Origin: a virus
Direction: 5' to 3' (one strand)
IMG/VR virus record: IMGVR_UViG_3300031669_000121
Span: 1-35,543 of that record
DNA length: 35,543 bases
Of this stretch, positions 12,392 through 34,910 are shown piece by piece. Numbering within the stretch: position 1 is the first letter of the stretch; each line of letters begins with the position of its first letter. A program made the position numbers and the translations under genes. The notes beneath the pieces were generated by a model. The model did no database searches. It was not told where the DNA came from and saw nothing but the letters and a program-made list of their open reading frames with translations.

Positions 12392-12604
12392 ATGTCGTCC
12401 TTGACTATTTCCCCGTCACGGTAATGCCTCGCCTAACGAACGAGTCTCGGTCATTTATCCAATTCGCATGACTGCGAAGACTATTGCCCCGTCACGGTAA
12501 TAAAACTTCCCTGCTATCCGTCACAGGTCTACGAATGACATATTTTATATTCATAAATATTAAATATGTTCATATATATTATATATGGAGACCACGAAAT
12601 TAAA
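12392..12604 (-). promoter_or_regulatory. Structured leader of the scaffold-coat operon with repeated boxes
   Basis: About 200 bases without a gene. Two 23-base direct repeats with one mismatch lie at 12403-12425 and 12479-12501. Each ends CCCCGTCACGGTAAT and contains the near-palindrome CCGTCACGG; a third degenerate box, CCGTCACAGG, is at 12518-12527. Between them is the hairpin TTCGC/GCGAA around AGTCAT (minus-strand reading, near 12463-12478) and CTCG/CGAG (near 12428-12444). The G+C content is higher than in flanking DNA. It could be an RNA leader that controls scaffold and coat synthesis or a protein-binding site. Confidence 0.55.
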
Positions 12605-12610
12605 AGTCAA
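12582..12610 (-). promoter_or_regulatory. Candidate sigma70-type promoter for scaffold/coat
   Basis: On the minus strand TTGACT (12610-12605), a 17-base spacer and CATATA (12587-12582); a TATAAT further on would have a 21-base spacer. It reads toward the structured leader and scaffold, with about 190 bases of leader before the scaffold ATG. Confidence 0.5.
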
Positions 12611-12636
12611 GCATTTATTGAAATATTTTTTAAATA

Positions 12637-24569: not shown

Positions 24570-24597
24570 TTGAAAAATATCTTTCTATGCGTATAAT
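24570..24597 (+). promoter_or_regulatory. Sigma70-type promoter of the structured RNA and tRNA-Asn
   Basis: TTGAAA (24570-24575), 16-base spacer, TATAAT (24592-24597). The predicted start near 24604 is just where the run of RNA stems begins. No RBS or ORF follows for about 460 bases. Confidence 0.7.
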
Positions 24598-24603
24598 TTA
24601 TAC

Positions 24604-24960
24604 GGCTCTCGATGGTACGCGCGATAGTTTACTGTTTACTTATAGTTAGATTCACTTACAAATGACTCGCGAGCTAATTTGTAATAATCTACTTCTGATC
24701 AGGCTAGAGAGACAAGAATTTTTTGAGCGTTTCCTATCCGGCTCTTGGTGAAAAGATAGGTCTAGGCCACCATTAAATAGCCTGATGAACCAGTAACGCG
24801 GCGAAACATGCAAATGTAGCGTAGAGTCTTCCAGGGTGGCTACGATGAAGACACAGCCAGAGCAATATTTAATGGCATAATGAGATTAACGTTGATATAC
24901 GCGATATCAAGCACAATTCATATGTGTTCCTAACGCTAGGACAATCCTAGTTAGTCTCGC
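24604..24960 (+). ncRNA. Large structured noncoding RNA upstream of tRNA-Asn
   Basis: No ORF; G+C higher than surroundings. Stems read directly: 24647-24652/24686-24691 (TAGATT/AATCTA) continuing to 24656-24663/24677-24684 (TTACAAAT/ATTTGTAA), with a 13-base loop displaying the palindrome CTCGCGAG. 24698-24706/24778-24786 (ATCAGGCTA/TAGCCTGAT). 24733-24738/24755-24760 (CCTATC/GATAGG). 24806-24809/24814-24817 closed by GCAA, within 24796-24799/24819-24822. 24826-24831/24847-24852 (GTCTTC/GAAGAC). 24770-24777/24868-24875 (CCATTAAA/TTTAATGG) crosses the second helix as a pseudoknot. The 3' domain is 24882-24890/24950-24958 (GAGATTAAC/GTTAGTCTC) enclosing 24892-24898/24904-24910 (TTGATAT/ATATCAA), 24912-24915/24923-24926 and 24937-24940/24946-24949. 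Family unknown; it resembles GOLLD/ROOL in style and in lying beside a phage tRNA. Confidence 0.7.
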
Positions 24961-24973
24961 CAATTATCATTTT

Positions 24974-25045
24974 TGGCACGTAGCACAACGGTAGTGCGTC
25001 GGTCTGTTAAGCCGTTGGTTGTTGGTTCGAATCCAGCCGTGCCAG
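24974..25045 (+). tRNA. tRNA-Asn (anticodon GTT)
   Basis: Cloverleaf by eye: acceptor TGGCACG/CGTGCCA, bases 8-9 TA, D stem GCAC/GTGC with loop AACGGTA, anticodon loop CTGTTAA (GTT at 25006-25008), T arm GTTGG-TTCGAAT-CCAGC, discriminator G. The top anticodon pair is U-U. CCA is not encoded. Asn codons are frequent in this AT-rich phage, so it may support late translation. Confidence 0.92.
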
Positions 25046-25061
25046 TAATAATGAGTTTTTA

Positions 25062-25250
25062 ATGAACAAATCATATTATTCTGTTGAATATCAAATGACA
25101 AATCCACCAAAAGCTATTGGTATTTCTTTTATTTCAAATAAAAATGGTAAAAAAAATATTAAACCTATTCTCAATGTTATAGAAATAGATAGTAATAAAA
25201 ATTTTATATATGAACTCATATGCGATATATTAAATAACACATATGATTAA
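25062..25250 (+). CDS. Small hypothetical protein downstream of tRNA-Asn
   Basis: Sixty-two residues, MNKSYYSVEYQMTNPPKAIG onward, basic middle (NKNGKKNIKPILNV) and helical end. Starts 16 bases after the tRNA with only a weak ribosome site (AATGAG). Not recognised; could be non-coding. Confidence 0.4.
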   Translation: MNKSYYSVEYQMTNPPKAIGISFISNKNGKKNIKPILNVIEIDSNKNFIYELICDILNNTYD

Positions 25251-25267
25251 AGCTCTAAATTTAAACT

Positions 25268-25543
25268 TTAATCAACTTTAACACATACCCATTTATCCTT
25301 GTATTCCAGCGCATCAATAATGTCGCTATGATTAAATTTACACAGTTCTTGCAGTATTTCTTTGTCATCCTTATCTACATAAAACTTTTTAGCCGTTCTT
25401 TTAAGTTCATTGAACTTTATTGTTACATCTTTGTAACAATCTATCCAATTTTTATCAGAATGATAAACAATCTTGAGCTTTGCGCACACCGTTGCTCCTA
25501 AGTTTATTTGCGGTAAGATCACTTCCATGCGTCTGCTTTCCAT
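25268..25543 (-). CDS. Small hypothetical protein overlapping the replication gene
   Basis: Ninety-one residues (MESRRMEVILPQINLGATVC..., NELKRTAKKFYVDKDDKEIL) in a frame shifted from the replication gene, overlapping its last 89 bases; GGGAG lies seven bases before the ATG. Composition is coding-like. In the place where lambda-type phages keep the P/helicase-loader gene, but too short for that. Not recognised. Confidence 0.5.
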   Translation of the reverse strand: MESRRMEVILPQINLGATVCAKLKIVYHSDKNWIDCYKDVTIKFNELKRTAKKFYVDKDDKEILQELCKFNHSDIIDALEYKDKWVCVKVD

Positions 25544-26306
25544 GTTTCAGCTCCCATTCCTTGTTAGCTTCAAAAGTTGGATGTCCGGCACCATATTCTT
25601 TTACTGTACATCGTAAATTATTGTTATCTGTTTGTTTTATGTTTTTATTAATATAATTTGTTGTTTTTTTATTCACTTCAAATAGTCCTGTCCACCCATT
25701 CATAATACTTTGATTTATTATTTCGTTAATATCTTTACATTGTTCATGTAAAACGATTAATTTTTGTATAGCTTTTTTCTCAGATAAATTAGTCATTTGT
25801 TTTTTTATTTCTTTACGATGCTGTTTAAATTCATCCCAAAGCTCCCTAGGTAACCAATCAGGAAGAATAATTTCATCGCTGTTGTATATATGTTTTTTAT
25901 TATTTGTTTTTACATCTGGTATAGGTTTCCGATTTTTCAGAAATTCATTTCCGATTTCTCGGCTTTCCATTTCCGATTTTTCGGAAATGGGAATATTCAA
26001 TAACTTATGAGCATTATCAGTTAAAGCATACCAAGATGTGCGGTCATATTTTACAGAATTGTAATTTCCTTTCAAAATTAGATCAGAACTTATGCAATTT
26101 TTTATAACTGTTTCAATCTGACTTTTTGTCCAATATGGAAACAACATGGTATAGGCATCTACACTGTTGTATGTCCAATATCGACCATCATAGAAATGTT
26201 TATTATTAGCTATATTTTTTTGAACCCAAAAAACAACATTGTTTAAAAAAATAGCAACGTTTACGCCATACTTTTTTGCAATTTCTATATCGAAATGATG
26301 TTGCAC
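25455..26306 (-). CDS. Replication initiator, lambda O-type (helix-turn-helix), with internal origin
   Basis: A 283-residue protein starting at a GTG (26306) with AAGGA seven bases upstream. The N-terminal 100 residues (HHFDIEIAKKYGVNVAIFLN, YPYWTKSQ-like 'FPYWTKSQIETVIKNC', DRTSWYALTD) look like a winged helix DNA-binding domain. The second half has 'LPDWLPRELWDEFKQHRKEI' and 'QSIMNGWTGLF', a block common in phage replication proteins. Three iterons lie within the gene at codons about 106-127, as in lambda O. It would recruit the host helicase; no loader gene is recognised. Confidence 0.7.
   Translation of the reverse strand: MQHHFDIEIAKKYGVNVAIFLNNVVFWVQKNIANNKHFYDGRYWTYNSVDAYTMLFPYWTKSQIETVIKNCISSDLILKGNYNSVKYDRTSWYALTDNAHKLLNIPISEKSEMESREIGNEFLKNRKPIPDVKTNNKKHIYNSDEIILPDWLPRELWDEFKQHRKEIKKQMTNLSEKKAIQKLIVLHEQCKDINEIINQSIMNGWTGLFEVNKKTTNYINKNIKQTDNNNLRCTVKEYGAGHPTFEANKEWELKHGKQTHGSDLTANKLRSNGVRKAQDCLSF
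25926..25991 (+). repeat. Three origin-type iterons inside the replication gene
   Basis: Three direct repeats of exactly 22 bp, at 25926-25947, 25948-25969 and 25970-25991. Each begins TTTCCGATTT[TC]TC and forms a hyphenated palindrome. The third is perfect, TTTCCGA-TTTT-TCGGAAA; the others carry one to several mismatches in the right arm. AT-rich DNA flanks them. The layout matches the lambda ori, where O-protein dimers bind repeated dyads within gene O. Confidence 0.75.
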
Positions 26307-26328
26307 AACAAATTCCTTATTCTAGGGG

Positions 26329-26356
26329 TTGACCAAATCCTATGGCACCGTATAAT
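26329..26356 (+). promoter_or_regulatory. Strong sigma70-type promoter opposing the replication operon
   Basis: TTGACC (26329-26334), 16-base spacer, TATAAT (26351-26356) on the plus strand, 23 bases upstream of the divergently read replication start. Predicted first base near 26363. Confidence 0.7.
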
Positions 26357-26362
26357 GGTAGG

Positions 26363-26437
26363 TGCGCATAGGTTCAGGAGAACCTGGTTTTTTGTCTTTA
26401 TGCGCTCTGGTTTGTCCCCAGGGCGCAGTTTCTCTTA
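26363..26437 (+). ncRNA. OOP-like small RNA (about 75 nt)
   Basis: Starts at the promoter above and ends after a ten-pair hairpin TGCGCTCTGG/CCAGGGCGCA (26401-26410/26418-26427, one U-G pair) followed by GTTTCTCTT, a plausible intrinsic terminator. The 5' half can form GCGCATA/TATGCGC (26364-26370/26399-26405) around GGTTC-AGGA-GAACC, which excludes the terminator hairpin, so two folds compete. Lambda OOP is a 77-nt RNA made opposite to the operon between cII and O; the position and size here agree. It stops about 60 bases short of the 77-codon gene unless read-through occurs. Confidence 0.6.
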
Positions 26438-26497
26438 ACGGTAAAACCGTATCTCATCAAGGTTAACCCCTACATAAATAATTCTCCACTATCTTTT

Positions 26498-26731
26498 TTA
26501 AATTTCATTATTATTTTTTCCTTGATTTGACATCCATTCAAAAAATGCAGCCTCATCGATAAGAACGCGCTTGCCAATTTTTTTTACAACACCAAATTGA
26601 TCAAATCCATTCTTATGTCTTTTAAAAATGAGATAACGAAGTCCTGCAATAGATGGCCATTCATGGTGCTTCTCCCAGTTGGGGACGGGGATATATCGAG
26701 TATGAGAAATACTTGAATTATTATTGTTCAT
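26498..26731 (-). CDS. Small DNA-binding protein (excisionase/AlpA-like) in the cro/cII position
   Basis: Seventy-seven residues. 'YIPVPNWEKHHEWPSIAGLR', 'YLIFKRHKNGFDQFGVVKKI' and 'GKRVLIDEAAFFEWM' match small winged-helix proteins in which a helix-turn-helix is followed by 'G.R.LIDE..F..W'. It is the first gene of the replication operon, divergent from the RHH gene, so a regulatory role like Cro or CII is inferred. AAGG lies eight bases before the ATG. Confidence 0.6.
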   Translation of the reverse strand: MNNNNSSISHTRYIPVPNWEKHHEWPSIAGLRYLIFKRHKNGFDQFGVVKKIGKRVLIDEAAFFEWMSNQGKNNNEI

Positions 26732-26963
26732 ATAAGCTACCTTTTAATTAACAATTTCAGACTCGGTGAGTCGGATTTTTTAATATATTATCAAAAACTC
26801 GCATCATTGGTGCGATAAATTTTACAGGTTACGCTAAAAAATAGATCAAAAATTATACTCAATGATCTCAAAATCAAGGTCGGATAAAGTTTAATAAAAA
26901 AAAAGTTTGATTTTTTTTTAAATTTATATAAAATATATATTTTAATCGTCAGGGAGATTTAAA
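26732..26963. promoter_or_regulatory. Divergent control region between the 77-codon gene and the RHH gene
   Basis: Rightward promoter TTGATT (26907-26912), 16 bases, TAAAAT (26929-26934). Leftward -10 TATAAT on the minus strand (26857-26852) sits inside the dyad AGATCA/TGATCT (26843-26848/26863-26868), a likely operator. A hairpin GACTC/GAGTC (26760-26764/26768-26772) followed by GGATTTTTT could terminate plus-strand transcripts coming from the OOP-like promoter. Another hairpin, TCGCA/TGCGA, lies near 26797-26815. Confidence 0.5.
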
Positions 26964-27146
26964 ATGTCTAAAGATAATTTTAGATTTATAAATTTAAAAG
27001 TTTCGAATGAAATGTGGAAGAAGTTAAAAATAATCAGTATACAAAAAGATATGGCTCTAAGTGATTTTTTATATGAATTCATTGAAAAAAGTTTTTCATC
27101 TAAAAAATATGAAAATGTTTTAACTATTGATAATATTTCTGAATAA
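26964..27146 (+). CDS. Ribbon-helix-helix regulator (Arc/CopG-like)
   Basis: Sixty residues. 'FRFINLKVSNEMWKKLKIIS' and 'KDMALSDFLYEFIEKSF' fit an RHH fold: N-terminal strand (INLKVS), helix (EMWKKLKIISIQK) and second helix (LSDFLYEFIEKS). GGGAG precedes the ATG. It is divergent from the replication operon and is the likely repressor for the dyads between them. Confidence 0.65.
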   Translation: MSKDNFRFINLKVSNEMWKKLKIISIQKDMALSDFLYEFIEKSFSSKKYENVLTIDNISE

Positions 27147-27171
27147 TATTTATACCATCATTTTAATAAGC

Positions 27172-27205
27172 GCATGACTTAAAGCAACTACTCTTTAAGC
27201 CATGC
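27172..27205 (+). other. Long hairpin between RHH gene and next ORF
   Basis: GCATG-A-CTTAAAG (27172-27184) pairs with CTTTAAG-C-CATGC (27193-27205), twelve pairs with one A-C mismatch and the loop CAACTACT. No U-run follows, so it is not an ordinary terminator; processing or mRNA-stability signal possible. Confidence 0.5.
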
Positions 27206-27237
27206 TAACCTTGCATCTTACAGGGAGATACAAAGCT

Positions 27238-27417
27238 ATGGATATTAAATCAAAATTTAATGAAATAATCTACATCGCATGTTTTTTATGTGAAGAAATA
27301 GATAACTTAGAAAAAAACTTTTCAAATGTTGTTGAATTTCAATCAAACGTGGAGTATAGTGCGCAACTTCGATCTGTTATTTTTTTTAAAAATAAGTTGA
27401 TCGAAAAAATCATATGA
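27238..27417 (+). CDS. Small hypothetical protein downstream of RHH regulator
   Basis: Fifty-nine residues from ATG 27238 (AGGGAG ten bases upstream): MDIKSKFNEIIYIACFLCEE onward. Helical, Asn/Glu-rich. Shares the CAGGGAGAT leader with the RHH gene. The transcript ends at the terminator at 27452. Not recognised. Confidence 0.5.
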   Translation: MDIKSKFNEIIYIACFLCEEIDNLEKNFSNVVEFQSNVEYSAQLRSVIFFKNKLIEKII

Positions 27418-27451
27418 GTGTCCTGTTTGTTATATTTTGCATGTTGTACTT

Positions 27452-27482
27452 ATCCCACTTAAAGAATAAGTGGGATTTTTTT
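27452..27482 (+). terminator. Intrinsic terminator
   Basis: ATCCCACTTA (27452-27461), loop AAGAA, TAAGTGGGAT (27467-27476), then a T-run to 27482. Ends the rightward RHH transcript and meets the convergent leftward gene cluster. Confidence 0.9.
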
Positions 27483-27639
27483 ATTTAGACCAGCACAATA
27501 ATTTATTAAATTCATCATGTGTAAGTTTAGGTTTTTCCTCCATATTTTCTCTATTCAATAAAAAGTTATCTGGTAATGGAACGTAATTTTTAAAATAATC
27601 AGGTAACTCATTCACTTCATTCACTTCATATCTTGCCAT
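27481..27639 (-). CDS. Small hypothetical protein (last of the leftward early cluster)
   Basis: Fifty-two codons, ATG 27639 with GGAG upstream: MARYEVNEVNELPDYFKNYV, PLPDNFLLNRENMEEKPKLT, HDEFNKLLCWSK. The stop falls in the T-run of the terminator. Not recognised. Confidence 0.55.
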   Translation of the reverse strand: MARYEVNEVNELPDYFKNYVPLPDNFLLNRENMEEKPKLTHDEFNKLLCWSK

Positions 27640-27669
27640 TTTTTATCTCCTTATTGATTTATTAAATTT

Positions 27670-27885
27670 TTATTTATTTGGTGGTTCTGGTAAGGGCATC
27701 CAATATGTGATGTATTTTGATAAATTTTTATCACTTATAGAATTATGATAAAATGAATTTTTAAAATAAAAACATATTCTATATTCCGCATATAAGCAAC
27801 AAAACCATACTAAAACAGTTTGATTATTTTCAGGCAACTTATCTTTAACACTTATCCATTTATTATCCACTAATGTACATCTCAT
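27670..27885 (-). CDS. DUF551-like protein
   Basis: Seventy-one residues: 'KWISVKDKLPENNQTVLVWF' at the front and 'YITYWMPLPEPPNK' at the end are the hallmarks of DUF551, a small phage and prophage family (W..V.D.LPE....VLV........THWMPLPEPP). Role unknown. Overlaps the upstream small gene by 23 bases. Confidence 0.75.
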   Translation of the reverse strand: MRCTLVDNKWISVKDKLPENNQTVLVWFCCLYAEYRICFYFKNSFYHNSISDKNLSKYITYWMPLPEPPNK

Positions 27886-28036
27886 CTATTTCACAAAGTT
27901 CTTTCTGAATTTCTTCAAATCTTTTCCTATTTTCAGGTTTAACTTTATCCCAATCATAAACTAGACTTTTACGTTCTTTATCTAAATTTAATATATGATC
28001 AACAATTGATGTATGGTGATTTTTAATATTTCTCAT
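27863..28036 (-). CDS. Small helical hypothetical protein
   Basis: Fifty-seven codons from ATG 28036: MRNIKNHHTSIVDHILNLDK, ERKSLVYDWDKVKPENRKRF, EEIQKELCEIDEMYISG. Charged helices. The ribosome site is modest (GGGTTAG). Not recognised; supported by filling the gap in frame with coding-like composition. Confidence 0.5.
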   Translation of the reverse strand: MRNIKNHHTSIVDHILNLDKERKSLVYDWDKVKPENRKRFEEIQKELCEIDEMYISG

Positions 28037-28040
28037 ATTA

Positions 28041-28385
28041 CTAACCCTTTTTGTTAAGTATATCTTCTATATCAGCAAGCAATAAATGTTCATTTATTGA
28101 ATGATTTTCCAATATATTAGCTATTATACGTCTATTATCTTGTATTTCTTTTTTAATTTCATCAACTCGTATCTTATGCTCACTTTTAATTTCATTACAA
28201 TCATTTATTTTAATGCTTTTTTTAAAATCTTCCATAAATAATGACATATAAACGACCGATATAGAAAGATTAAGTAAACTATAATGCTCATCGGGTAAAG
28301 AATTATTTATTATCAAATAACAATTAGATATTTTTTCAGCATTTTCACATATTAGTAATTTTTTTTCATCATCAAATATATTCAT
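28041..28385 (-). CDS. Hypothetical helical protein
   Basis: A 114-residue acidic helical protein (MNIFDDEKKLLICENAEKIS, SVVYMSLFMEDFKKSIKIND). Overlaps the previous gene by four bases. Its pattern of short helices with Leu/Ile spacing is shared with the 99- and 103-residue proteins of this cluster, so they may be distant relatives. Not recognised. Confidence 0.5.
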   Translation of the reverse strand: MNIFDDEKKLLICENAEKISNCYLIINNSLPDEHYSLLNLSISVVYMSLFMEDFKKSIKINDCNEIKSEHKIRVDEIKKEIQDNRRIIANILENHSINEHLLLADIEDILNKKG

Positions 28386-28831
28386 ATATTTTGTTCCATT
28401 TCATATTCATTATGCCAAAGTTTGATTGCTTCCAAAAAATTATCATCACAAATCCAACCAGGCACACTTCCTCCATGTTCCATAATTTTTTTATCATTCA
28501 TAACATACCAAAAGAAATAAACAAATTTCTGCCAATTTTCATGGACATAATTTTTAAAATCATCTTCTTTTTTATTCCACGTAGACTTAGCTTCATTTGA
28601 AAGAAATTTTAAATCTTTGTCTTTATCCCTAAAATCTTGATAAATAGTTAACATATCATGAACTAATTTTAAATTATCATCCGGCATTCCACATGCGCAG
28701 TGACCTAATATTTTTGATTGAAGAAAATGTTCTATATTATCAAATTCACATCCATTTTCATCTTCATAATGAACTCGTTTAATAGTTTCATCTTGATAAT
28801 CAATAACCTCATAATCACTTAATGGTTTCAT
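28382..28831 (-). CDS. Conserved phage protein with C-A-C-G motif and EHGGSVPGW
   Basis: A 149-residue protein. 'ILGHCACGMPDDNLKLVHDM' and 'KKIMEHGGSVPGWICDDNFLEAIKLW' match a phage family I know as 'L..C.CG.P......L........LT.HGGSV.GSWLT..G...L'. Function unknown. Confidence 0.6.
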   Translation of the reverse strand: MKPLSDYEVIDYQDETIKRVHYEDENGCEFDNIEHFLQSKILGHCACGMPDDNLKLVHDMLTIYQDFRDKDKDLKFLSNEAKSTWNKKEDDFKNYVHENWQKFVYFFWYVMNDKKIMEHGGSVPGWICDDNFLEAIKLWHNEYEMEQNI

Positions 28832-28839
28832 TTTTACCC

Positions 28840-29055
28840 CTATAATTTTGCATCTATTTCATCTTTTAGTTCACGTATGAAATTATGCACACTAAATAAT
28901 GCTTTTTCATCATGATTGTTAAGAATATTGATTATTTTTATAATGGTATCATTAGTTCCATTAACAAACCCTGTTTGATATGCTATTTTTAAATCTTTTT
29001 TAACTGATTCTCTTAAAGATTCAATAAAATTAACATCATTTTCTTCACTTATCAT
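28840..29055 (-). CDS. Small hypothetical protein
   Basis: Seventy-one residues starting MISEENDVNFIESLRESVKK; AGGAG is eight bases before this ATG, favouring it over upstream starts. Helical. Overlaps the previous gene by eleven bases. Not recognised. Confidence 0.5.
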   Translation of the reverse strand: MISEENDVNFIESLRESVKKDLKIAYQTGFVNGTNDTIIKIINILNNHDEKALFSVHNFIRELKDEIDAKL

Positions 29056-29230
29056 TTTCATACTCCTGAGACTCATTTATTTCATCATTAACAAAAGCAA
29101 CAAAACTTGCAAATATCAATGCTGATTCACTTAAATAACCTAAATGTTTTGAATTTGGCACTAAATCCAGTATTTCAAGATAATTATTTGACATTTTTTG
29201 CGATAATTGGAAAAATTTTTCACTATTCAT
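29045..29230 (-). CDS. Small hypothetical protein
   Basis: Sixty-one residues: MNSEKFFQLSQKMSNNYLEI onward, ending SQEYENDK. Helical. AAGGAATTC precedes the ATG. Not recognised. Confidence 0.5.
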   Translation of the reverse strand: MNSEKFFQLSQKMSNNYLEILDLVPNSKHLGYLSESALIFASFVAFVNDEINESQEYENDK

Positions 29231-29242
29231 AGAATTCCTTAT

Positions 29243-29266
29243 GGCCGGTAAGAGACATTACCGGCC
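29243..29266 (-). other. GC-rich hairpin between small genes
   Basis: GGCCGGTAA (29243-29251) and TTACCGGCC (29258-29266) pair perfectly around GAGACA, a strikingly GC-rich stem in AT-rich DNA, between two leftward genes. No U-run on the minus strand; on the plus strand TTTGATTT follows. Confidence 0.5.
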
Positions 29267-29286
29267 TTTGATTTAAATTAAGGCAT

Positions 29287-29460
29287 TTAAGATGAATTTT
29301 TATCAAAATAAAACACTTCATCAACTTTCTTGATCAACCAGTCATATGTTTCTTTATCTGTTTGTTTTATATCTTGATTCCCAAGCAATCCCATTGCACA
29401 ACCAAGAAGAATTAATAAATCTCGAGTTTTTTGAATTATTTTTTCATCTATCTCATTCAT
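29287..29460 (-). CDS. Small hypothetical protein
   Basis: Fifty-seven codons from ATG 29460: MNEIDEKIIQKTRDLLILLG, CAMGLLGNQDIKQTDKETYD, WLIKKVDEVFYFDKNSS. AAGGA precedes the ATG. Hydrophobic centre (LLILLGCAMGLLG) may be a short membrane-interacting helix. Not recognised. Confidence 0.55.
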   Translation of the reverse strand: MNEIDEKIIQKTRDLLILLGCAMGLLGNQDIKQTDKETYDWLIKKVDEVFYFDKNSS

Positions 29461-29475
29461 TGAATATATATCCTT

Positions 29476-29781
29476 TTAATCATTTAATTTAGTATTTTTT
29501 ATAGTAGGTGAATATTCTTCAGTCTTAAAACATGTATCACTTTTGTTAATTATTTCTTTAACTTTATTTAATGTATCATTTAAATATTCATCTTTATTTT
29601 CAATATTGAAATTTTTAATGCAATTTACCATCATAAAACAAATTACAGTAGTATAAATTTCAAAATTAACTCGAACACTATATTTATCTTGAATTTTCAA
29701 AAATAAATTAATTATTTCTTTTTGAAAATTTATCAAATCATCGTCTATTAACTTTTCAAATTCTTTTTCTTTTTCATTCAT
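29476..29781 (-). CDS. Hypothetical helical protein
   Basis: A 101-residue acidic helical protein, MNEKEKEFEKLIDDDLINFQ onward. Overlaps the upstream gene by four bases (ATGA). Similar in style to the 99-, 103- and 114-residue proteins nearby. Not recognised. Confidence 0.5.
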   Translation of the reverse strand: MNEKEKEFEKLIDDDLINFQKEIINLFLKIQDKYSVRVNFEIYTTVICFMMVNCIKNFNIENKDEYLNDTLNKVKEIINKSDTCFKTEEYSPTIKNTKLND

Positions 29782-30011
29782 AAATCTTCCTTTATCTTAA
29801 TATTTTTATTTAAAAATTCTTTGTTAATTCCACCTTGTATTTTTACAGATTCCCAAAAATGATTTTTTAATATTTCCATTGTATCTTCTATATTATTCAT
29901 GCGAATAAAAATATCTCTTCGTTCTCGCCTCACTTGAAATATAGCTAAACAAGTTAAGATTACACCCAATGCACAAAACATCATTGAAGGAAGTAAATAT
30001 AAATATGTCAT
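29778..30011 (-). CDS. Single-span membrane protein
   Basis: Seventy-seven residues: MTYLYLLPSMMFCALGVILT is a membrane segment (about residues 3-25), followed by basic 'QVRRERRDIF' (positive-inside) and a helical cytoplasmic tail. Overlaps its upstream neighbour by four bases. Not recognised; could act at the membrane early in infection. Confidence 0.6.
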   Translation of the reverse strand: MTYLYLLPSMMFCALGVILTCLAIFQVRRERRDIFIRMNNIEDTMEILKNHFWESVKIQGGINKEFLNKNIKIKEDL

Positions 30012-30646
30012 ATTGAATTCTCTTTATTATTTTTAGGCCAATTTATCCAATTTTCACTTACATGTGCTTTATCGATACACAAAGAATTATCATTACAAAA
30101 TTTAACATTTATCTGTGATGTTCCGTCAGGTCTATCATGCGCTATAACAGAAATAAATTTATTAAGTCGCTTTTTTCCGCATATCATACAAATATATGAG
30201 CCATATTTAAGAAGATATTCTTTTGGTGTAATAAGTCCCATAGTAGAAAATATTGATTCTAATTTACGTTGTTCATCTTCATTCTCACATCCATTTAAAC
30301 GTTCTTCAATTTGTTCTTCACGCACACTTTTACATGATTGTGAAACTTCTTTAAGAATATATTCAACATCTATAACTTGACAATTTTTAATTTCATCAAA
30401 ATTTTCTTCTATCCATTTATGGGCGGTTCCCATTGTTCTTTCGTGACGTTTCCAGTCGCCAGAATATCTCGCAGAAAATGAAGGTGCTTGCATTGAAATT
30501 AAAAGTATACATGGGTCAGGTCGATATCCCGCTTGATTAAATAAATATCTTTCATCAAAAGAATCTCCAATCATTCTAATTGCAAAAGCCGGAATAAATG
30601 TTGCACGATCTCTTATTTCTACTATCTTTATATTTTCATTTTTCAT
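30008..30646 (-). CDS. Conserved phage protein 'IRDR.TFIP..AI.M' with C-terminal zinc site
   Basis: A 212-residue protein. The first 100 residues ('VEIRDRATFIPAFAIRMIGD', 'RYLFNQAGYRPDPCILLISM', 'WKRHERTMGTAHKWIEENFD', 'CQVIDVEYILKEV') closely follow a conserved phage family of unknown function. The C-terminal part carries CxxC (ICMICGKKR) and a later Cys pair with His (FCNDNSLCIDKAH), a probable zinc site. It is the largest protein of this cluster. Confidence 0.65.
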   Translation of the reverse strand: MKNENIKIVEIRDRATFIPAFAIRMIGDSFDERYLFNQAGYRPDPCILLISMQAPSFSARYSGDWKRHERTMGTAHKWIEENFDEIKNCQVIDVEYILKEVSQSCKSVREEQIEERLNGCENEDEQRKLESIFSTMGLITPKEYLLKYGSYICMICGKKRLNKFISVIAHDRPDGTSQINVKFCNDNSLCIDKAHVSENWINWPKNNKENSI

Positions 30647-30665
30647 TAAATATTATCCATAAAAT

Positions 30666-30974
30666 TTATTGCATTGATTTTTCAAAATATTCATTTACTT
30701 GTTTTTTAATAGTATCAAACAAATCATCCATAATAATATTTTGTTGATGTTCAAGATTAAAAATCATAATATATTTTGTTAATATTTCTCTATTAAACAT
30801 AACTAATATTGAGCCAATTAAATCAAGAATACTTTGAGAATTTATAGAACCATTTTCATTTGAAAATATATGCAAATTATTAAGCGTATTTTTATTAAAA
30901 GAATCTAATAAATCTTCCATTATTTTTTGTTTAATTTGTTTTTGTTCATAATTTAAAAAATTATCTTTTTTCAT
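30666..30974 (-). CDS. Hypothetical helical protein
   Basis: A 102-residue protein from ATG 30974 (AAAGG eight bases upstream): MKKDNFLNYEQKQIKQKIME onward, helical. Overlaps the upstream stop by 14 bases. Not recognised. Confidence 0.5.
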   Translation of the reverse strand: MKKDNFLNYEQKQIKQKIMEDLLDSFNKNTLNNLHIFSNENGSINSQSILDLIGSILVMFNREILTKYIMIFNLEHQQNIIMDDLFDTIKKQVNEYFEKSMQ

Positions 30975-31260
30975 CAAAAATACCTTTATAATGATCTAAA
31001 TATTCATCAGCCACTCGATCAATCCATTCTTTTGCCTTAATTCTAGTAAAATCCTTTATATCATATGTTTTACCATGCTCTTCTAATGATAAACATGTTT
31101 TTGCAAGCAAAGAAGAAATTACATGAACTATCAAATATATATTTTCAGATGGGTCATCATCACAAAATACTTCTTGTGATAAATCACTGCTAGATATCAA
31201 TAATTTATTAGAAATTTCATTTGCTTTTTCAATTATTAACTTTTGATCTTTAATAATCAT
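30961..31260 (-). CDS. Hypothetical protein
   Basis: A 99-residue protein: MIIKDQKLIIEKANEISNKL, an acidic stretch, then 'IKAKEWIDRVADEYLDHYKG'. Helical. Overlaps upstream gene by four bases. Not recognised. Confidence 0.5.
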   Translation of the reverse strand: MIIKDQKLIIEKANEISNKLLISSSDLSQEVFCDDDPSENIYLIVHVISSLLAKTCLSLEEHGKTYDIKDFTRIKAKEWIDRVADEYLDHYKGIFDEKR

Positions 31261-31481
31261 TTTTCATTCCCTATTTTTAATTTATCATCAATAATTTCAA
31301 ATTCGACATCGACGATATCTTCTTCGTTTATAGTTGATTTAATATATGATTTAGATGGCTGAAGTGGTTTATATATATTTTTCAAATTTTGATTATTATT
31401 TATTAAATAATCTATATGTTGTTGATGAATCTCTTGTTGAGTAAAATTCCATTGTTTTATTTGTTCATTAAAATTTTTCAT
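31257..31481 (-). CDS. Small hypothetical protein
   Basis: Seventy-four residues from ATG 31481 (GGA seven bases upstream; another ATG four codons earlier is possible): MKNFNEQIKQWNFTQQEIHQ, ending 'DIVDVEFEIIDDKLKIGNEK'. Gln-rich front. Second gene of the cluster after the repressor. Not recognised. Confidence 0.5.
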   Translation of the reverse strand: MKNFNEQIKQWNFTQQEIHQQHIDYLINNNQNLKNIYKPLQPSKSYIKSTINEEDIVDVEFEIIDDKLKIGNEK

Positions 31482-31507
31482 TTTTAAGTCCATTTAAAAA
31501 TTTTGTA

Positions 31508-31717
31508 TTAATCGTCTATATCATTGACATTTATATTCATTTTCGCGTATGTGTTAGCACAGTTGACGATTTTAACCTTCGCTGATAAACCAGGTTTTCT
31601 TTTTCCACGCTCATAATAAGAAACGCTATTTTGATCAAGATCAGCAATTTTAGCAAATTCACATTGTGTCAAATTACAGATAACTCTAATGGTTTTGATC
31701 AAATTCTTAACAAGCAT
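31508..31717 (-). CDS. XRE-family (Cro/CI-type) repressor
   Basis: Sixty-nine residues from ATG 31717 (GGAAGG eight bases upstream). 'LIKTIRVICNLTQCEFAKIA' and 'DQNSVSYYERGKRKPG' form a textbook HTH_XRE: helix 2 TQCEFAKIA, turn, recognition helix QNSVSYYERG. It is a DNA-binding domain alone, as in Cro. It heads the leftward cluster and diverges from the recombination operon, so it likely controls both. Confidence 0.85.
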   Translation of the reverse strand: MLVKNLIKTIRVICNLTQCEFAKIADLDQNSVSYYERGKRKPGLSAKVKIVNCANTYAKMNINVNDIDD

Positions 31718-31894
31718 GTCATCATCCTTCCAAATCTTATTTTCAATCAAGAGATTATCCTTTTATTTGTACAATTTCAAATTTATTTTTAAATTTTATG
31801 AAAAAATATCCTAATTAACTATTGCATGATATGAAAGATTATGTAAGAATATCCTAGTAGATTAAATTAACTAACTAGCCGTGGAGATTTAAAT
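31718..31894. promoter_or_regulatory. Divergent early control region with repeated AATATCCTA boxes
   Basis: Minus-strand promoter TTGAAA (31780-31775), 15 bases, GATAAT (31759-31754). Repeats AATATCCTA at 31805-31813 and 31848-31856, each followed by TTAACTA (at once or after about ten bases); a related TTATCCT is at 31755-31761. A rightward promoter may start with TTGCAT (31822) but its -10 is poor. The repeats are candidate operators for the XRE protein. Confidence 0.5.
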
Positions 31895-32083
31895 ATGAAC
31901 GAGTATATCCATGAAAATTGTAATGGTGAATCCGTATATTGTGTTGAAAATGAAGCTTTTTTCTGTCATAACTGTAAAGAGTGGATATGGAATGAAAATG
32001 AGTTAATTCAGACTAACTCTTATATTCCAGGATTTGACATTGATGTCAGTTCAAATTCTACTCATATTAATTTGATTGGTTAA
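31895..32083 (+). CDS. Zinc-ribbon-like small protein
   Basis: Sixty-two residues with Cys at 'ENCNGESVYCVENEAFFCHNCKEW': CxxC plus two further Cys, likely one zinc. First gene of the rightward recombination operon, leader CTAGCCGTGGAG. Not recognised beyond the ribbon. Confidence 0.6.
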   Translation: MNEYIHENCNGESVYCVENEAFFCHNCKEWIWNENELIQTNSYIPGFDIDVSSNSTHINLIG

Positions 32084-32092
32084 GGAGCGACC

Positions 32093-32383
32093 ATGAGAGA
32101 AATTAATTCATTTATTGATATTTGTTTAATAAAAGAATACTCCAAAAAAAGTTTAGACAATGGTTATTCTTTAGACATTGATGATGTCCCGCAAAATGAT
32201 CGCTCACACTTCCTAGATTTACTAATGAATCATGATACTGATGTAAAAGACCAAGTTCTTTCTATGATGCAAAGCTGGATTAATGATCGTTTACAAATAT
32301 GTGAAATGAAAGATAACTTTCAAAATAATGTACATGTAAATAGAACAATTAATGGTGATTATTCATGGAGTGCAACAGCATGA
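32093..32383 (+). CDS. Hypothetical acidic protein
   Basis: Ninety-six residues: MREINSFIDICLIKEYSKKS, then 'VPQNDRSHFLDLLMNHDTDV' and a helical 'LSMMQSWINDRLQICEMK'. GGAG precedes the ATG. Ends with an ATGA overlap to the next gene. Not recognised. Confidence 0.55.
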   Translation: MREINSFIDICLIKEYSKKSLDNGYSLDIDDVPQNDRSHFLDLLMNHDTDVKDQVLSMMQSWINDRLQICEMKDNFQNNVHVNRTINGDYSWSATA

Positions 32384-32523
32384 ATAATGACTATATAACA
32401 TCAAAAGAAAGATTGAAATTTTGCAAAGAAACAATAATTTCAAAAATATTTGTATATGGTATCTTATTTATGGCTGTTTATGCAGTTATCAATGAATCAT
32501 TAAATAATTTGGGAGCATTATAA
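32380..32523 (+). CDS. Membrane mini-protein in the recombination operon
   Basis: Forty-seven codons whose start (ATGA) and stop (TAATG) overlap both neighbours. MNNDYITSKERLKFCKETII, SKIFVYGILFMAVYAVINES, LNNLGAL: one membrane segment near residues 22-38. Function unknown. Confidence 0.6.
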   Translation: MNNDYITSKERLKFCKETIISKIFVYGILFMAVYAVINESLNNLGAL

Positions 32524-33197
32524 TGTCTAATACATCATTAATAATCGGTGAATCTGGTACAGGGAAAAGTACGTCTATTTCAAATTTAAATCCTTTGGAA
32601 ACATTTATAATAAATGTTCTTGATAAACCTTTGCCGTTCAGAGGATATAGGAAAAATTATATTGCGATAAAAGATTGGAATGACATAATAGGAAACTATT
32701 ACGCATCAGATGAATTTTCTAAAATTATTAATTGCATAAAAATGGTTAATCAAAAAAGACCTGAAATAAAAAACTTAGTTATAGATGACTGGCAATATAC
32801 CATGTGTAATGAATTTATGAGACGAGCGACAGAAAACGGGTTCACTAAATTCACTGAAATAGGACAACATGCCTGGTCAATAATTAAAGCTTTGACAGAT
32901 TGTAGAGAAGATTTATATTGTTTTGTGTTATCTCATAGCGATACCGATACAAATGGAAAATATAAATGCAAATCAATTGGTAAGATGTTAGATGAAAAAA
33001 TAACAATTGAAGGGATGTTTACTACTGTATTGCATACTCAAATAATGGATGGAGCATATAGATTTTTAACTCAAAATGATGGTTCACATATTGCAAAATC
33101 ACCGCAAGGAATGTTTGAAGATAAATATATTGAAAATGATCTTGCATTTGTAAAATCAAAAATGAATGATTATTACTATGAAGATGTGGCAATATAA
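32523..33197 (+). CDS. Sak4-type RecA-fold ATPase (single-strand annealing / recombination)
   Basis: A 224-residue AAA/RecA-core ATPase: Walker A GESGTGKST (residues 9-17), Walker B LVIDDWQ (85-91), and 'YCFVLSHSDTDTNGKYKCKS' where Sak4 proteins carry the sensor. Overall plan matches phage Sak4 (Rad51-like core), which works with SSB to pair DNA. The SSB-like gene follows directly, supporting this assignment. Probably feeds recombination-dependent concatemer formation; RusA resolves the junctions. Confidence 0.8.
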   Translation: MSNTSLIIGESGTGKSTSISNLNPLETFIINVLDKPLPFRGYRKNYIAIKDWNDIIGNYYASDEFSKIINCIKMVNQKRPEIKNLVIDDWQYTMCNEFMRRATENGFTKFTEIGQHAWSIIKALTDCREDLYCFVLSHSDTDTNGKYKCKSIGKMLDEKITIEGMFTTVLHTQIMDGAYRFLTQNDGSHIAKSPQGMFEDKYIENDLAFVKSKMNDYYYEDVAI

Positions 33198-33218
33198 TAA
33201 ATTAACAGGAGATATTTG

Positions 33219-33737
33219 ATGAGTTATTTTGATTATGAACCTATGACAGAAGAACAATGCGAAAAAGCTAGATATCAATTATTACCAGACGGATTTTATA
33301 AAGGTAAAATAGAAGATGCTATTAGTAGGCAATCTTCAAAAGGTAATCCTATGGCTGAATTAACTGAAATTTTTTATGATGATAATGGAAACTCGAAAAA
33401 GATTAAAGATTTCTTACCGTTTACTAAAGGAATGATGTGGAAATGTAAACATTATTGTGATTCAGTTAACTTAACAACTGAATATCTTAACAAACAATTT
33501 TCTCCAGAAATTTCAAAAGATAGAGTAGTATATGCTTTGATTGGCATTGAAAAAGGTAAAGAAATTCCTTTTGATAAATTAAACGGAAAACCATTCGGTT
33601 CTTTATATCCAGATAAAAATATTATAAAAGATTATGTAACATCAGAATTTTATGAGTCTAATAAAGGAAATATTAAATTATCACAATTAAATCCAATTGC
33701 AATCAATAATGAATCGGAGGAAGATATACCTTTTTAA
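33219..33737 (+). CDS. SSB-like single-strand DNA-binding protein
   Basis: A 172-residue protein from ATG 33219 (AGGAG seven bases upstream). 'LLPDGFYKGKIEDAISRQSS', 'NPMAELTEIFYDDNG' and 'IKDFLPFTKGMMWKCKHYCD' fit the OB-fold single-strand binding proteins of the DUF669-like group, and the tail ends in acidic EEDIPF, the SSB-type peptide that recruits partner enzymes. Paired with Sak4 upstream. Confidence 0.75.
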   Translation: MSYFDYEPMTEEQCEKARYQLLPDGFYKGKIEDAISRQSSKGNPMAELTEIFYDDNGNSKKIKDFLPFTKGMMWKCKHYCDSVNLTTEYLNKQFSPEISKDRVVYALIGIEKGKEIPFDKLNGKPFGSLYPDKNIIKDYVTSEFYESNKGNIKLSQLNPIAINNESEEDIPF

Positions 33738-33758
33738 ATTAATTATGGGTAATTGATA

Positions 33759-33764
33759 TATAAT
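33759..33764 (+). promoter_or_regulatory. Candidate -10 element before the second structured RNA
   Basis: TATAAT at 33759-33764, directly followed by the dyad ATTCTG/CAGAAT (33765-33770/33779-33784). No good -35 box is visible; the RNA may also be cut from the operon transcript. Confidence 0.35.
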
Positions 33765-33770
33765 ATTCTG

Positions 33771-34020
33771 CTGCATAACAGAATGGAATACCTACTCTAT
33801 AAAAATTGCCAATCAGTTTATGGATGCGGAAGCTCAAAAAGACAGAAAATGCTAGGCCAGCTATGCAGGATGGTGGCACTAAGAAGAAACACCCTGCATC
33901 AGATCGAAGAGCCTCTAATTGTGCAGAAATGCGAGGCCTATGCTTACGGGTTATAAGGCTTGCAAGCAGCGTAGGCTAACTAGAGAGGTTGCTGATGAAA
34001 TCTCAGCACGCATCCAAAGT
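33771..34020 (+). ncRNA. Second structured noncoding RNA, upstream of a tRNA-like element
   Basis: A gene-free stretch with raised G+C and a consistent set of non-conflicting helices. Closing helix TGGATGCG/CGCATCCA (33821-33828/34009-34016). Hairpin A ATGCAG/CTGCAT plus GGTG/CACC (33863-33868/33894-33899; 33872-33875/33890-33893). Hairpin B GCCTC/GAGGC plus GCA-GAAA-TGC (33911-33915/33933-33937; 33923-33932). Helix C CTATGC/GCGTAG (33938-33943/33969-33974, one G-U) around GCTTGCAAGC. Hairpin D TGCTGA/TCAGCA (33990-33995/34003-34008), which abuts the closing helix. Small ORFs across this stretch are interrupted and unlike the neighbours. Family unknown. Confidence 0.65.
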
Positions 34021-34026
34021 TTAAAT

Positions 34027-34116
34027 GGCAATCGCGGCGTAATGGTAAGACGCATGGGTAAATGCACTGGATACTTTGGAAACCTCCGTGTGCCAGTTCG
34101 ATTCTGGGCGATTGTC
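34027..34116 (+). other. tRNA-like element (non-canonical anticodon region)
   Basis: Acceptor-like GGCAATCGC/GCGATTGTC (34027-34035/34108-34116, one G-U). D-arm-like GCGT-AATGGTAAG-ACGC (34037-34053). T arm CCAG-TTCGATT-CTGG (34093-34107) abutting the acceptor strand. The roughly 39 bases between D and T arms do not form a normal seven-base anticodon loop on a five-pair stem; instead GCAT/ATGC (34052-34055/34062-34065) and CAC.GGA/TCCGTG (34066-34071/34085-34090) pair. So it is tRNA-like, degenerate or functionally different. Length (about 88) is that of a long-variable-arm tRNA. Confidence 0.5.
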
Positions 34117-34138
34117 TCTTTATAGGATTCCAAATGAC

Positions 34139-34294
34139 ATGAAAGATATGGTTGACCCAACTTACGATAAAAATGAAATAGCAGCTAATCCAATTTGGGA
34201 TTTAGCATTTAAATTATATGAACAACATAATGATAATTCCCCCATTGGTTGGGGTGATTACATACCGGAAGCTAATAAGATTATATCAGAATAG
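34139..34294 (+). CDS. Small protein between tRNA-like pieces
   Basis: Fifty-one residues from ATG 34139 (AGGA upstream): MKDMVDPTYDKNEIAANPIW, DLAFKLYEQHNDNSPIGWGD, YIPEANKIISE. Coding-like composition and a plausible small phage protein. It lies between the tRNA-like element and a separate T-arm-like hairpin. Function unknown. Confidence 0.55.
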   Translation: MKDMVDPTYDKNEIAANPIWDLAFKLYEQHNDNSPIGWGDYIPEANKIISE

Positions 34295-34304
34295 CGAACT
34301 ACAA

Positions 34305-34330
34305 GCCGGTGCAATTCCGGCCGATTGCCA
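34305..34330 (+). other. Second T-arm and acceptor-3'-like sequence
   Basis: GCCGG-TGCAATT-CCGGC (34305-34321) followed by CGATTGCC and A. CGATTGCC (34322-34329) is the perfect complement of GGCAATCG at 34027-34034, a better match than the proximal strand. It could be a second 3' end for the tRNA-like element, or a leftover from tRNA recombination. Confidence 0.45.
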
Positions 34331-34368
34331 AAAGTTTATGTGTTTATTTTAAACAAAAGGAGTTTTAA

Positions 34369-34743: not shown

Positions 34744-34910
34744 ATATTTTATTTTGCGATGGCTGTGGCTATGTCTATGGCGATGGCAGTGGCGATGGCG
34801 ATGGCGATGGCAGTGGCAGTGGCAGTGGCAGTGGCTGTGGCAATGGCGATGGCTATGGCTATGGCGATGGCAATGGCTATGGCTATGGCTATGGCGATGG
34901 CGATGGCTAG
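34728..34910 (+). CDS. Gly-rich hexamer-repeat peptide (GxG[DYSN])
   Basis: Sixty codons: MASEINILFCDGCGYVYGDG then GSGDGDG-type dipeptides to the end. The DNA from about 34758 to 34908 is a run of GGC[GAT/AGT/TAT/AAT/TGT] hexamer halves. All variation is confined to the codons between GGC/Gly codons and the frame stays open, so a Gly-X protein is plausible. It directly follows and overlaps the DUF6948-like gene; similar Gly-rich peptides follow this gene elsewhere, as far as I recall. Confidence 0.5.
   Translation: MASEINILFCDGCGYVYGDGSGDGDGDGSGSGSGSGCGNGDGYGYGDGNGYGYGYGDGDG
34758..34909 (+). repeat. GGC-NNT hexanucleotide repeat tract
   Basis: About 25 tandem units of GGCGAT, GGCAGT, GGCTAT, GGCAAT or GGCTGT. 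GC-rich in AT-rich surroundings and prone to slippage by units of six, which would leave the frame intact. Confidence 0.85.

Follow-up and report, generated by a model that had tools for sequence, protein, structure and literature searches.

Two intergenic RNA loci of a phage genome and families of tRNA-framed RNAs in tandem arrays

Introduction

What kind of RNA is encoded by two intergenic islands that each stand directly upstream of a tRNA or a tRNA-like element in a phage genome? The question arises from the IMG/VR virus record IMGVR_UViG_3300031669_000121 (35,543 bases, analysed over its whole length and referred to here as the window), where two loci, termed RNA1 and RNA2, lie on the plus strand and end ~11–14 nt before a tRNA-Asn gene (24973–25046) or a tRNA-like element (34027–34116), as the first-pass annotation had stated. 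The genome is AT-rich (32% G+C, compared with ~40–50% in the two islands) and its genes include a P22-like portal, Sak4, terminase and replication genes. From their shared position and a set of short common sequences, the loci had been taken to be either one RNA class present twice or two RNAs working with tRNA-type partners. The minimum free energy of neither locus is unusual when compared to shuffled sequences (z of -0.11 and -0.97), the evidence for RNA2 coming instead from covariation, and a search of both against Rfam 15 with E values up to 10 gave no meaningful match other than tRNA and, below threshold, tRNA-Sec (21.8 bits). We describe here that RNA2 is a member of a new family of tRNA-framed RNA (family B), which occurs in tandem with a second tRNA-framed family (family A).

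RNA2 as an expanded cloverleaf

Homology search with RNA2 led to contigs L301, L262 and L082, and a later pattern scan to six contigs, four of them new; family B now has ten members, seven of which were taken into the RNAalifold alignment. This alignment supports 36 base pairs, 21 of them with double-sided changes, and displays the order of a tRNA cloverleaf: acceptor, D stem, a 5-bp stem in the anticodon position, two inner helices, five variable-loop bases, T arm and closing acceptor strand. In RNA2 the acceptor is GGATGCG/CGCATCC, the D stem (GCTC at 33832, GAGC at 33909) carries a long insert in place of the D loop, the anticodon-position stem CTCTA/TAGAG encloses two helices instead of a loop and the T arm reads GCTGA-TGAAATC-TCAGC (33991–34007). 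The T loops of the family include TGAAATC and TGCAATT. Acceptor strands pair fully inside each member and never across members, and the most conserved sequence of the family is TCGAAGAG, GCGAGG and GGCTAAC. A covariance model of the family (R1) found new members in L277 (E 4e-17) and L288 (E 5e-16) as well as a full copy in L339, all of them near family A, and two real tRNAs of L084 are among its weak matches in 0.97 Mb of other loci. ARAGORN reports no tRNA in RNA2.

A second family, sharing the acceptor, D arm and T arm

Family A was reached through the nearest records by terminase and Sak4 protein, which yielded a single DNA match of use, a weak one to the record of L033; here (L129) the same flanks as in the window enclose an element running from GGCAATCGCGGCGT to GCCGGTGCAAATCCGGC-CGATTGCC, a 3' end that the window shares at 34305–34329. 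Scanning for the T arm of this element returned many ordinary phage tRNAs together with elements of one common plan, consisting of an acceptor strand, CG, a hairpin GCGTG-GACAGTGA-CACGC, an insert of 29–254 nt, a T arm with the loop TGCAATT and the second acceptor strand. The D hairpin of this plan is present in 80 viral contigs, whilst the same scan of bacterial genomes gave 13 exact matches, of which ~4 are true and lie in metagenome-assembled contigs of possibly viral origin. A descriptor built on the plan yielded 83 distinct elements; applied to all loci it gave 95 matches, five of these in loci chosen without any motif, and none on the reversed sequences. The family-A covariance model (R2) added L087, L014, L012, L008 and a second copy in L072, with the element of L087 (a terminase relative, 60%) ending 14 nt before a tRNA-Thr. 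Because R2 (E < 1e-7) finds family A in 9 of 87 related-phage loci that were fetched without a motif, ~1 in 10, the class is common. No convincing match to a 30-nt family-A D-arm query was obtained among isolate phages (50,697 records), and Rfam 15, searched with the window and 13 loci that nearly all carry family A, holds no match to either family.

In the alignment of 25 members of family A, 98.4% of the cells are paired and 17 of the 18 pairs show double-sided changes, compared with 31–40% paired in controls in which the partners were slid by 1–3 columns. Since the descriptor required a paired acceptor, the independent evidence lies in the variety of pair types, in the pair -1:73 and in an unselected A before the T stem; D-stem changes were counted on members not selected by their D arm, and T-stem changes on those not selected by their T arm. 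The -1:73 pair, which is outside the descriptor, is a standard pair in 61 of 70 distinct cores (37 expected), and 51 of 79 elements exhibit G -1 : C 73, the identity pair of tRNA-His. The A before the T stem, not a selection criterion, is present in all but one of the 79. At the position of the anticodon stem, no helix beyond chance was detected: five pairs form in 5 of 79 elements, with 4.2 in shuffles.

The central regions are mostly unrelated to each other, with 68 of 83 lacking a relative in the set at E 1e-3. Near-identical centres nevertheless occur together with differing acceptor or T stems, in three groups (L198/L263/L286/L287; L172/L256/L262; L154/L292). Open frames are not in excess, being found in 13 of 42 long centres (14.8 expected). 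Antisense action of the central cargo on its own contig was considered and rejected: the excess of repeats stems mainly from a duplicate in L273, and no antisense pattern was seen. In that contig, 3868–3975 and ~3310–3390 hold identical 57-nt copies of cargo and T arm, in one of which the 5' acceptor strand is missing along with most of the D arm. Several centres also show crossing helices by eye, which are invisible to the folding test reported below.

The tRNA-like element downstream of RNA2 is probably a divergent member of family A. It exhibits an acceptor GGCAATCGC/GCGATTGTC, a D arm GCGT-AATGGTAAG-ACGC and a T arm CCAG-TTCGATT-CTGG. It has no valid anticodon arm, ARAGORN reports no tRNA in 34027–34329, and the tRNA-Sec match mentioned above belongs to this element: its score is below the cut-off of 47 bits, with the 9+4 branch present and a UCA anticodon arm absent. 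The sequence GGCAATCG at 34027 can pair either with CGATTGTC at 34109–34116, which gives the T loop TTCGATT, or with CGATTGCC at 34322–34329, which gives a typical T arm. R2 matches 34253–34329 (E 6e-5), supporting the 3' end only. Compared with the family, the acceptor complement and the 3' end fit, whereas the GACAGTGA D loop does not. Since a similar divergent copy in L150 (6221–6323) likewise has an ordinary T loop, 34027–34116 may be a whole short element and 34305–34329 a remnant of another. The 51-aa open frame between the two candidate ends gave nothing as an anchor, no relative of it being found in IMG/VR.

Tandem arrangement and neighbouring tRNA genes

Families A and B occur side by side in four contigs. 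In the window, RNA2 ends at 34015 and the next unit starts at 34027; in L277, family B ends at 7596 and family A starts at 7605 (8 nt apart); in L288, the order is A then B, with 6 nt between; and in L339, a contig chosen by family B alone, B (683–834) is followed by a further unit (845–930) and by A (941–1111), so that A and B are 106 nt apart. GTTTATG-like spacers lie between the units, several of which end in N-CCA just upstream of the spacer. The string CCA[AG]TTTATG occurs 23 times per Mb in array loci against four times per Mb in other loci, and a unit closed by a 7-bp stem and CCA is opened by 7 of 20 such spacers in array loci, some of these units being already known, against 1 of 11 spacers elsewhere and none in reversed controls.

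The proximity to tRNA genes that had been noted for the two loci of the window extends to family A: a tRNA stands no more than 1 kb away from 12 of 81 elements (4.6 expected) and in all 12 cases shares their strand, with Asn and Tyr dominating. L301, L205, L072 and L287 combine family-A units with real tRNAs. The view that these RNAs work with tRNA-type partners thus goes in the right direction, with the addition that RNA2 is itself a tRNA-like cloverleaf standing in tandem with a second tRNA-like family.

Further units were noted in the same surroundings. One recurs in L129, L140, L150, L087 and L339: a closing stem is followed by GA[CA]GATAC, and the unit ends with GGGAAAAT before the other closing strand, the closing stems varying between GGC/GCC, GTCC/GGAC and TATAAAGC/GCTTTATA. 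Another, GGATATC...GATATCC-GCCA, is present in L232 (38–123) and is the unit at 845–930 between B and A in L339. L301 (1580–1690) holds an element closed by GGTAATAAG/CTTATTACC in which T-arm-like hairpins precede a D-arm-like stretch, the arrangement of a permuted tRNA; part of this element is called tRNA-Leu by ARAGORN. In L060 (12075–12260), a short hairpin-rich stretch precedes a tRNA-Gln downstream of a DUF669-type gene, near the place that RNA2 has in the window. At the end of the B-A array of L277 starts an open frame (7779–8216) with a Tad2-like domain (Thoeris anti-defence; Pfam E 2e-14).

The RNA1 locus and its relation to RNA2

The 5' end of RNA1 resembles a unit of L287 that sits between two family-A units (window 24598–24630, 28 of 33 positions identical, E 0.024). 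Independently, the spacer scan identified a unit in the family-A contig L263 with the same GGCTCTCGATG at its start and GAGAGCC-ACCA at its close. The units of L263 and L287 start with GGCTYTC-GATG and close with GARAGCC-ACCA, and the 3-bp stem after GATG covaries, differing between RNA1, L263 and L287 (GTA/TAC, TCA/TGA, CCC/GGG). The first unit of RNA1 possibly ends with AGAGTC-TT-CCA at 24823–24833, its 3' boundary being uncertain. The RNA1 5' end as a third unit type of the arrays is a lead, not proof: it comes from three sequences and the membership is uncertain. Searches with the middle of RNA1 and with its second part (24882–24958) found no homologue. Sites of the promoter class predicted upstream of RNA1 are no commoner than in shuffled sequences. 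Readings of RNA1 motifs by eye as a hammerhead, a group I intron or a T-box were rejected, with Rfam giving no support, as was a closing helix between RNA1 and the tRNA-Asn acceptor (TGGTACG/CGTGCCA), such complements being at chance level.

Are RNA1 and RNA2 then related to each other? The strings on which their kinship had been based are present in both loci: CTAGAGAG at 24704–24711 and 33980–33987, CTGATGAA at 24782–24789 and 33992–33999, and AGCGTAG at 24818–24824 and 33968–33974. The sharing does not exceed chance, with 11 common 7-mers (10.3 expected), four common 8-mers (2.7 expected, and reached by 152 of 500 dinucleotide shuffles) and no common 9-mer (0.8 expected). The order of the motifs also differs, being CTAGAGAG-CTGATGAA-AGCGTAG in RNA1 and AGCGTAG-CTAGAGAG-CTGATGAA in RNA2. 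In RNA2, the 3' strand of the anticodon-position stem, with which CTAGAGAG overlaps, reads TAGAG in the window and CAGAG, GATAG, CCTAG, GAGAG or ACAGG in relatives, and CTGATGAA lies within the T arm, where the stem strand is GCTGA in the window and GGGAG, ACAGG, ATGGG or GTAGG in relatives; since these strands change in sequence with pairing retained, the two strings are not conserved modules. The pattern CTGATGAA-gap-AGCGTAG-gap-GGTGGC was found at nine places in IMG/VR, about the number expected by chance, all wholly or partly in open frames and none in a tRNA locus.

Covariance models likewise do not join the two loci: R1 reports only RNA2 in the window with E values up to 10, and the sole match of R2 there is to the end of the tRNA-like element, not to RNA1. 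That one RNA class is present twice, as the first-pass annotation had suggested, would agree with the position of each locus before a tRNA or tRNA-like element and with the GTTTATG-like spacers in both; with common words at chance level, a different order and neither model connecting the loci, we consider it exceedingly improbable. The RNA1 and RNA2 loci probably hold different members of one kind of array, and not copies of one RNA.

A proposed function and its rivals

Covariation and recurrence establish the two families, their frames and their tandem arrangement. Both loci are probably parts of a phage system of tandem tRNA-framed RNAs that are processed by the host and in which the replaced arm is the working part; whilst the frames are observed, we infer the transcription of the units, their processing by RNase P and CCA addition, and their target. 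The units of an array would be transcribed together with, or beside, ordinary phage tRNAs, each being closed by an acceptor-type stem to which families A and B add tRNA-like D and T arms. RNase P would cut at the acceptor to generate the 5' end, the 3' end would be trimmed within the AU-rich GTTTATG-like spacer with CCA either added or already encoded, and the tRNA fold would shield the unit from exonucleases; the cut, the CCA end and the protection are all expected because the units keep the tRNA frame. The replaced anticodon arm (in family B also the D loop) would then be displayed on this frame as the working part. Its likeliest use may be that of a decoy or inhibitor of tRNA-targeting defence or of host tRNA-handling factors, a target that we prefer as a guess, given the retention of the frame, the loss of decoding and the diversification of the exposed part.

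The tRNA-like acceptor, D and T arms could also be those of interrupted or intron-bearing tRNAs, from which removal of the centre would leave a normal decoding tRNA, and an extra ordinary T-arm-like hairpin in the centre of L189, L203, L267 and the window element would agree with this. Such an origin is very improbable given that family A keeps no anticodon-stem helix, that the most conserved sequence of family B is located within or next to the segments whose removal would be required and that none of the Rfam intron models gives a match. In bacteria, the introns of tRNA genes are usually group I introns that splice themselves and exceed 200 nt. Decay of captured tRNA genes with foreign inserts would account for the irregular stretch at 34027–34329, with its duplicated 3' end and the open frame between, and for the second copy in L273 without a 5' acceptor strand. 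However, compensatory changes across both frames disfavour relics, as does the conservation, in unrelated contigs, of the GGCTAAC segment and the GACAGTGA loop; we regard this explanation as very improbable.

A third alternative retains the frame as the functional part, serving as a processing signal through which RNase P frees the ends of neighbouring RNAs or messages, with a functionless centre. The units do stand next to tRNAs and to one another on a single strand, and the centres are mostly unrelated. Against this, near-identical centres accompanied by differing acceptor or T stems point to selection on the centre, and the inner helices of family B covary, so that a mere processing signal seems unlikely to us.

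A displayed working arm, which we favour, also has to be set against several results that weigh in the other direction. CCA is encoded 1–2 bases after the 7-bp acceptor in only 10 of 83 family-A elements, and the centres of this family, folded alone, barely rise above shuffled sequences (mean z -0.48); a structured cargo is thus firm only for family B. Most members of family A were collected with exact strings of the D or T arm, so that the true variation is understated, and 19 of 81 elements lie mostly inside an open frame of at least 100 aa. No protein partner recurs, the top neighbours being Sak4 and DUF669 recombination genes, at 9 of 86 loci each, and none is exclusive. The family-A element of the window is itself divergent, with its misfitting D loop and two possible 3' ends.

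On the wider proposal we are evenly balanced: that phages of several groups carry a modular RNA system of natural tRNA-scaffold arrays, with families A and B and probably at least four families (the RNA1-type, GACGATAC...GGGAAAATA and GGATATC units), in which the anticodon arm has been swapped for fast-changing RNA that acts in trans on the host, probably against tRNA-handling defences or factors. What tRNA genes do for phages has been argued over for decades; alongside these genes there are numerous RNAs that retain the tRNA frame, cannot decode, and escape both tRNA finders and Rfam. Such units may be a natural forerunner of the tRNA scaffold and a supply of new domains of structured RNA; they also offer a case in which RNA-based counter-defence, or control over host tRNA enzymes, can be tested directly.

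Comparison with known RNAs

As in tRNA, families A and B possess an acceptor, a D arm and a T arm with a 7-nt loop in cloverleaf order and spacing; the units occasionally encode CCA and often adjoin true tRNA genes, and the weak matches of R1 to real tRNAs agree with this likeness. They differ in that family A is without an anticodon arm, that family B replaces the anticodon loop with two helices and the D loop with a long insert, and that the units, of 80–305 nt, are reported neither by ARAGORN nor by the Rfam tRNA model. Transfer-messenger RNA (tmRNA) similarly has tRNA-like ends and a long structured RNA in place of the anticodon arm, but the units exhibit a strong D stem, many unrelated centres and no excess of open frames, and neither ARAGORN nor Rfam reports a tmRNA match. 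Viral tRNA mimicry is also known from the tRNA-like structures of plant viruses, which are situated at the 3' end of RNA genomes; we claim no sequence relation to these.

The tRNA-scaffold vectors are man-made counterparts, in which a foreign structured RNA replaces the anticodon arm and the frame gives processing and stability; the phage units differ in being natural, varied and tandem. Laboratory tRNA scaffolds protect the RNAs that are put into them (PMC3753655).

Among open-licence papers, the nearest reports to phage tRNA-like RNAs, decoys, scaffolds and ornate RNAs are those on GOLLD/ROOL and on theta ribozymes. GOLLD and ROOL are large structured phage RNAs of unknown function found near tRNA islands (PMC12286853). 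They are much larger and have their own folds and Rfam models, which match neither the window and 13 loci at the gathering score nor the two window loci with E values up to 10; the T-box model likewise gave no match in the two window loci at this limit. Theta ribozymes of gut phages are small structured RNAs attached to tRNA genes (PMC10879173). These are HDV-like and cut at the tRNA 3' end, whereas the units described here stand before or after tRNAs and have an acceptor-type stem; no HDV-like Rfam family matched, although no theta-specific model was run.

Other features of the window

The features of both loci are collected in Table 1.

Table 1. Positions of the RNA units and associated features in the window
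Feature	Position	Strand	Basis
Sigma-70-like promoter TTGAAA-16-TATAAT, 6 nt 5' of RNA1 (predicted)	24570–24597	+	11/12 consensus matches only
RNA1 first unit, 5' module GGCTCTC-GATG-GTA(CGCGCGATAGTT)TAC (candidate)	24604–24833	+	Likeness to units of L287 and L263
Possible pseudoknot in RNA1, ATCAGGCTA (24698–24706) with TAGCCTGAT (24778–24786)	24698–24875	+	Perfect complements, single sequence
Possible pseudoknot in RNA1, CCATTAAA (24770–24777) with TTTAATGG (24868–24875), helices adjoin		+	Perfect complements, single sequence
RNA1 second part, stem GAGATTAAC/GTTAGTCTC enclosing three hairpins (predicted)	24882–24958	+	Minimum-free-energy fold
tRNA-Asn (GTT), ordinary tRNA	24973–25046	+	ARAGORN; Rfam tRNA 66 bits
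Spacers CAGTTTATGG (33814–33823), AAGTTTAAATGG (34017–34028), AAGTTTATGTG (34332–34342)	33814–34342	+	Like spacers in L129, L205, L277, L287, L339
RNA2, family B, expanded tRNA cloverleaf	33822–34015	+	7-member alignment; R1 146.4 bits (by construction, RNA2 being in the model)
tRNA-like element, probably divergent family A	34027–34116	+	5' GGCAATCGCGGCGT as in L129; divergent L150 copy
51-aa open frame between two candidate 3' ends	34139–34294	+	Sequence
Family-A 3' end, T arm GCCGG-TGCAATT-CCGGC and CGATTGCC	34305–34329	+	29-nt exact match to L154

A GC-rich intergenic stretch at 26310–26480, with a promoter-like TTGACC-TATAAT followed by a hairpin and a T run, was rejected as a third RNA of this type and is read as a promoter-like region instead; its promoter part is kept in three related family-A phages (L265, L286 and L012; E 5e-7 to 2e-5). 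When isolated phages were searched at the nucleotide level with RNA1, RNA2 and this stretch, only the tRNA-Asn and chance pieces were returned. Two other stretches are repetitive: at 34744–34910, a short GATGGC/TATGGC repeat lies within a 60-aa open frame, and at 12392–12636, a GC-rich intergenic region upstream of a scaffold-like gene carries GACTATT-CCCCGTCACGGTAAT twice.

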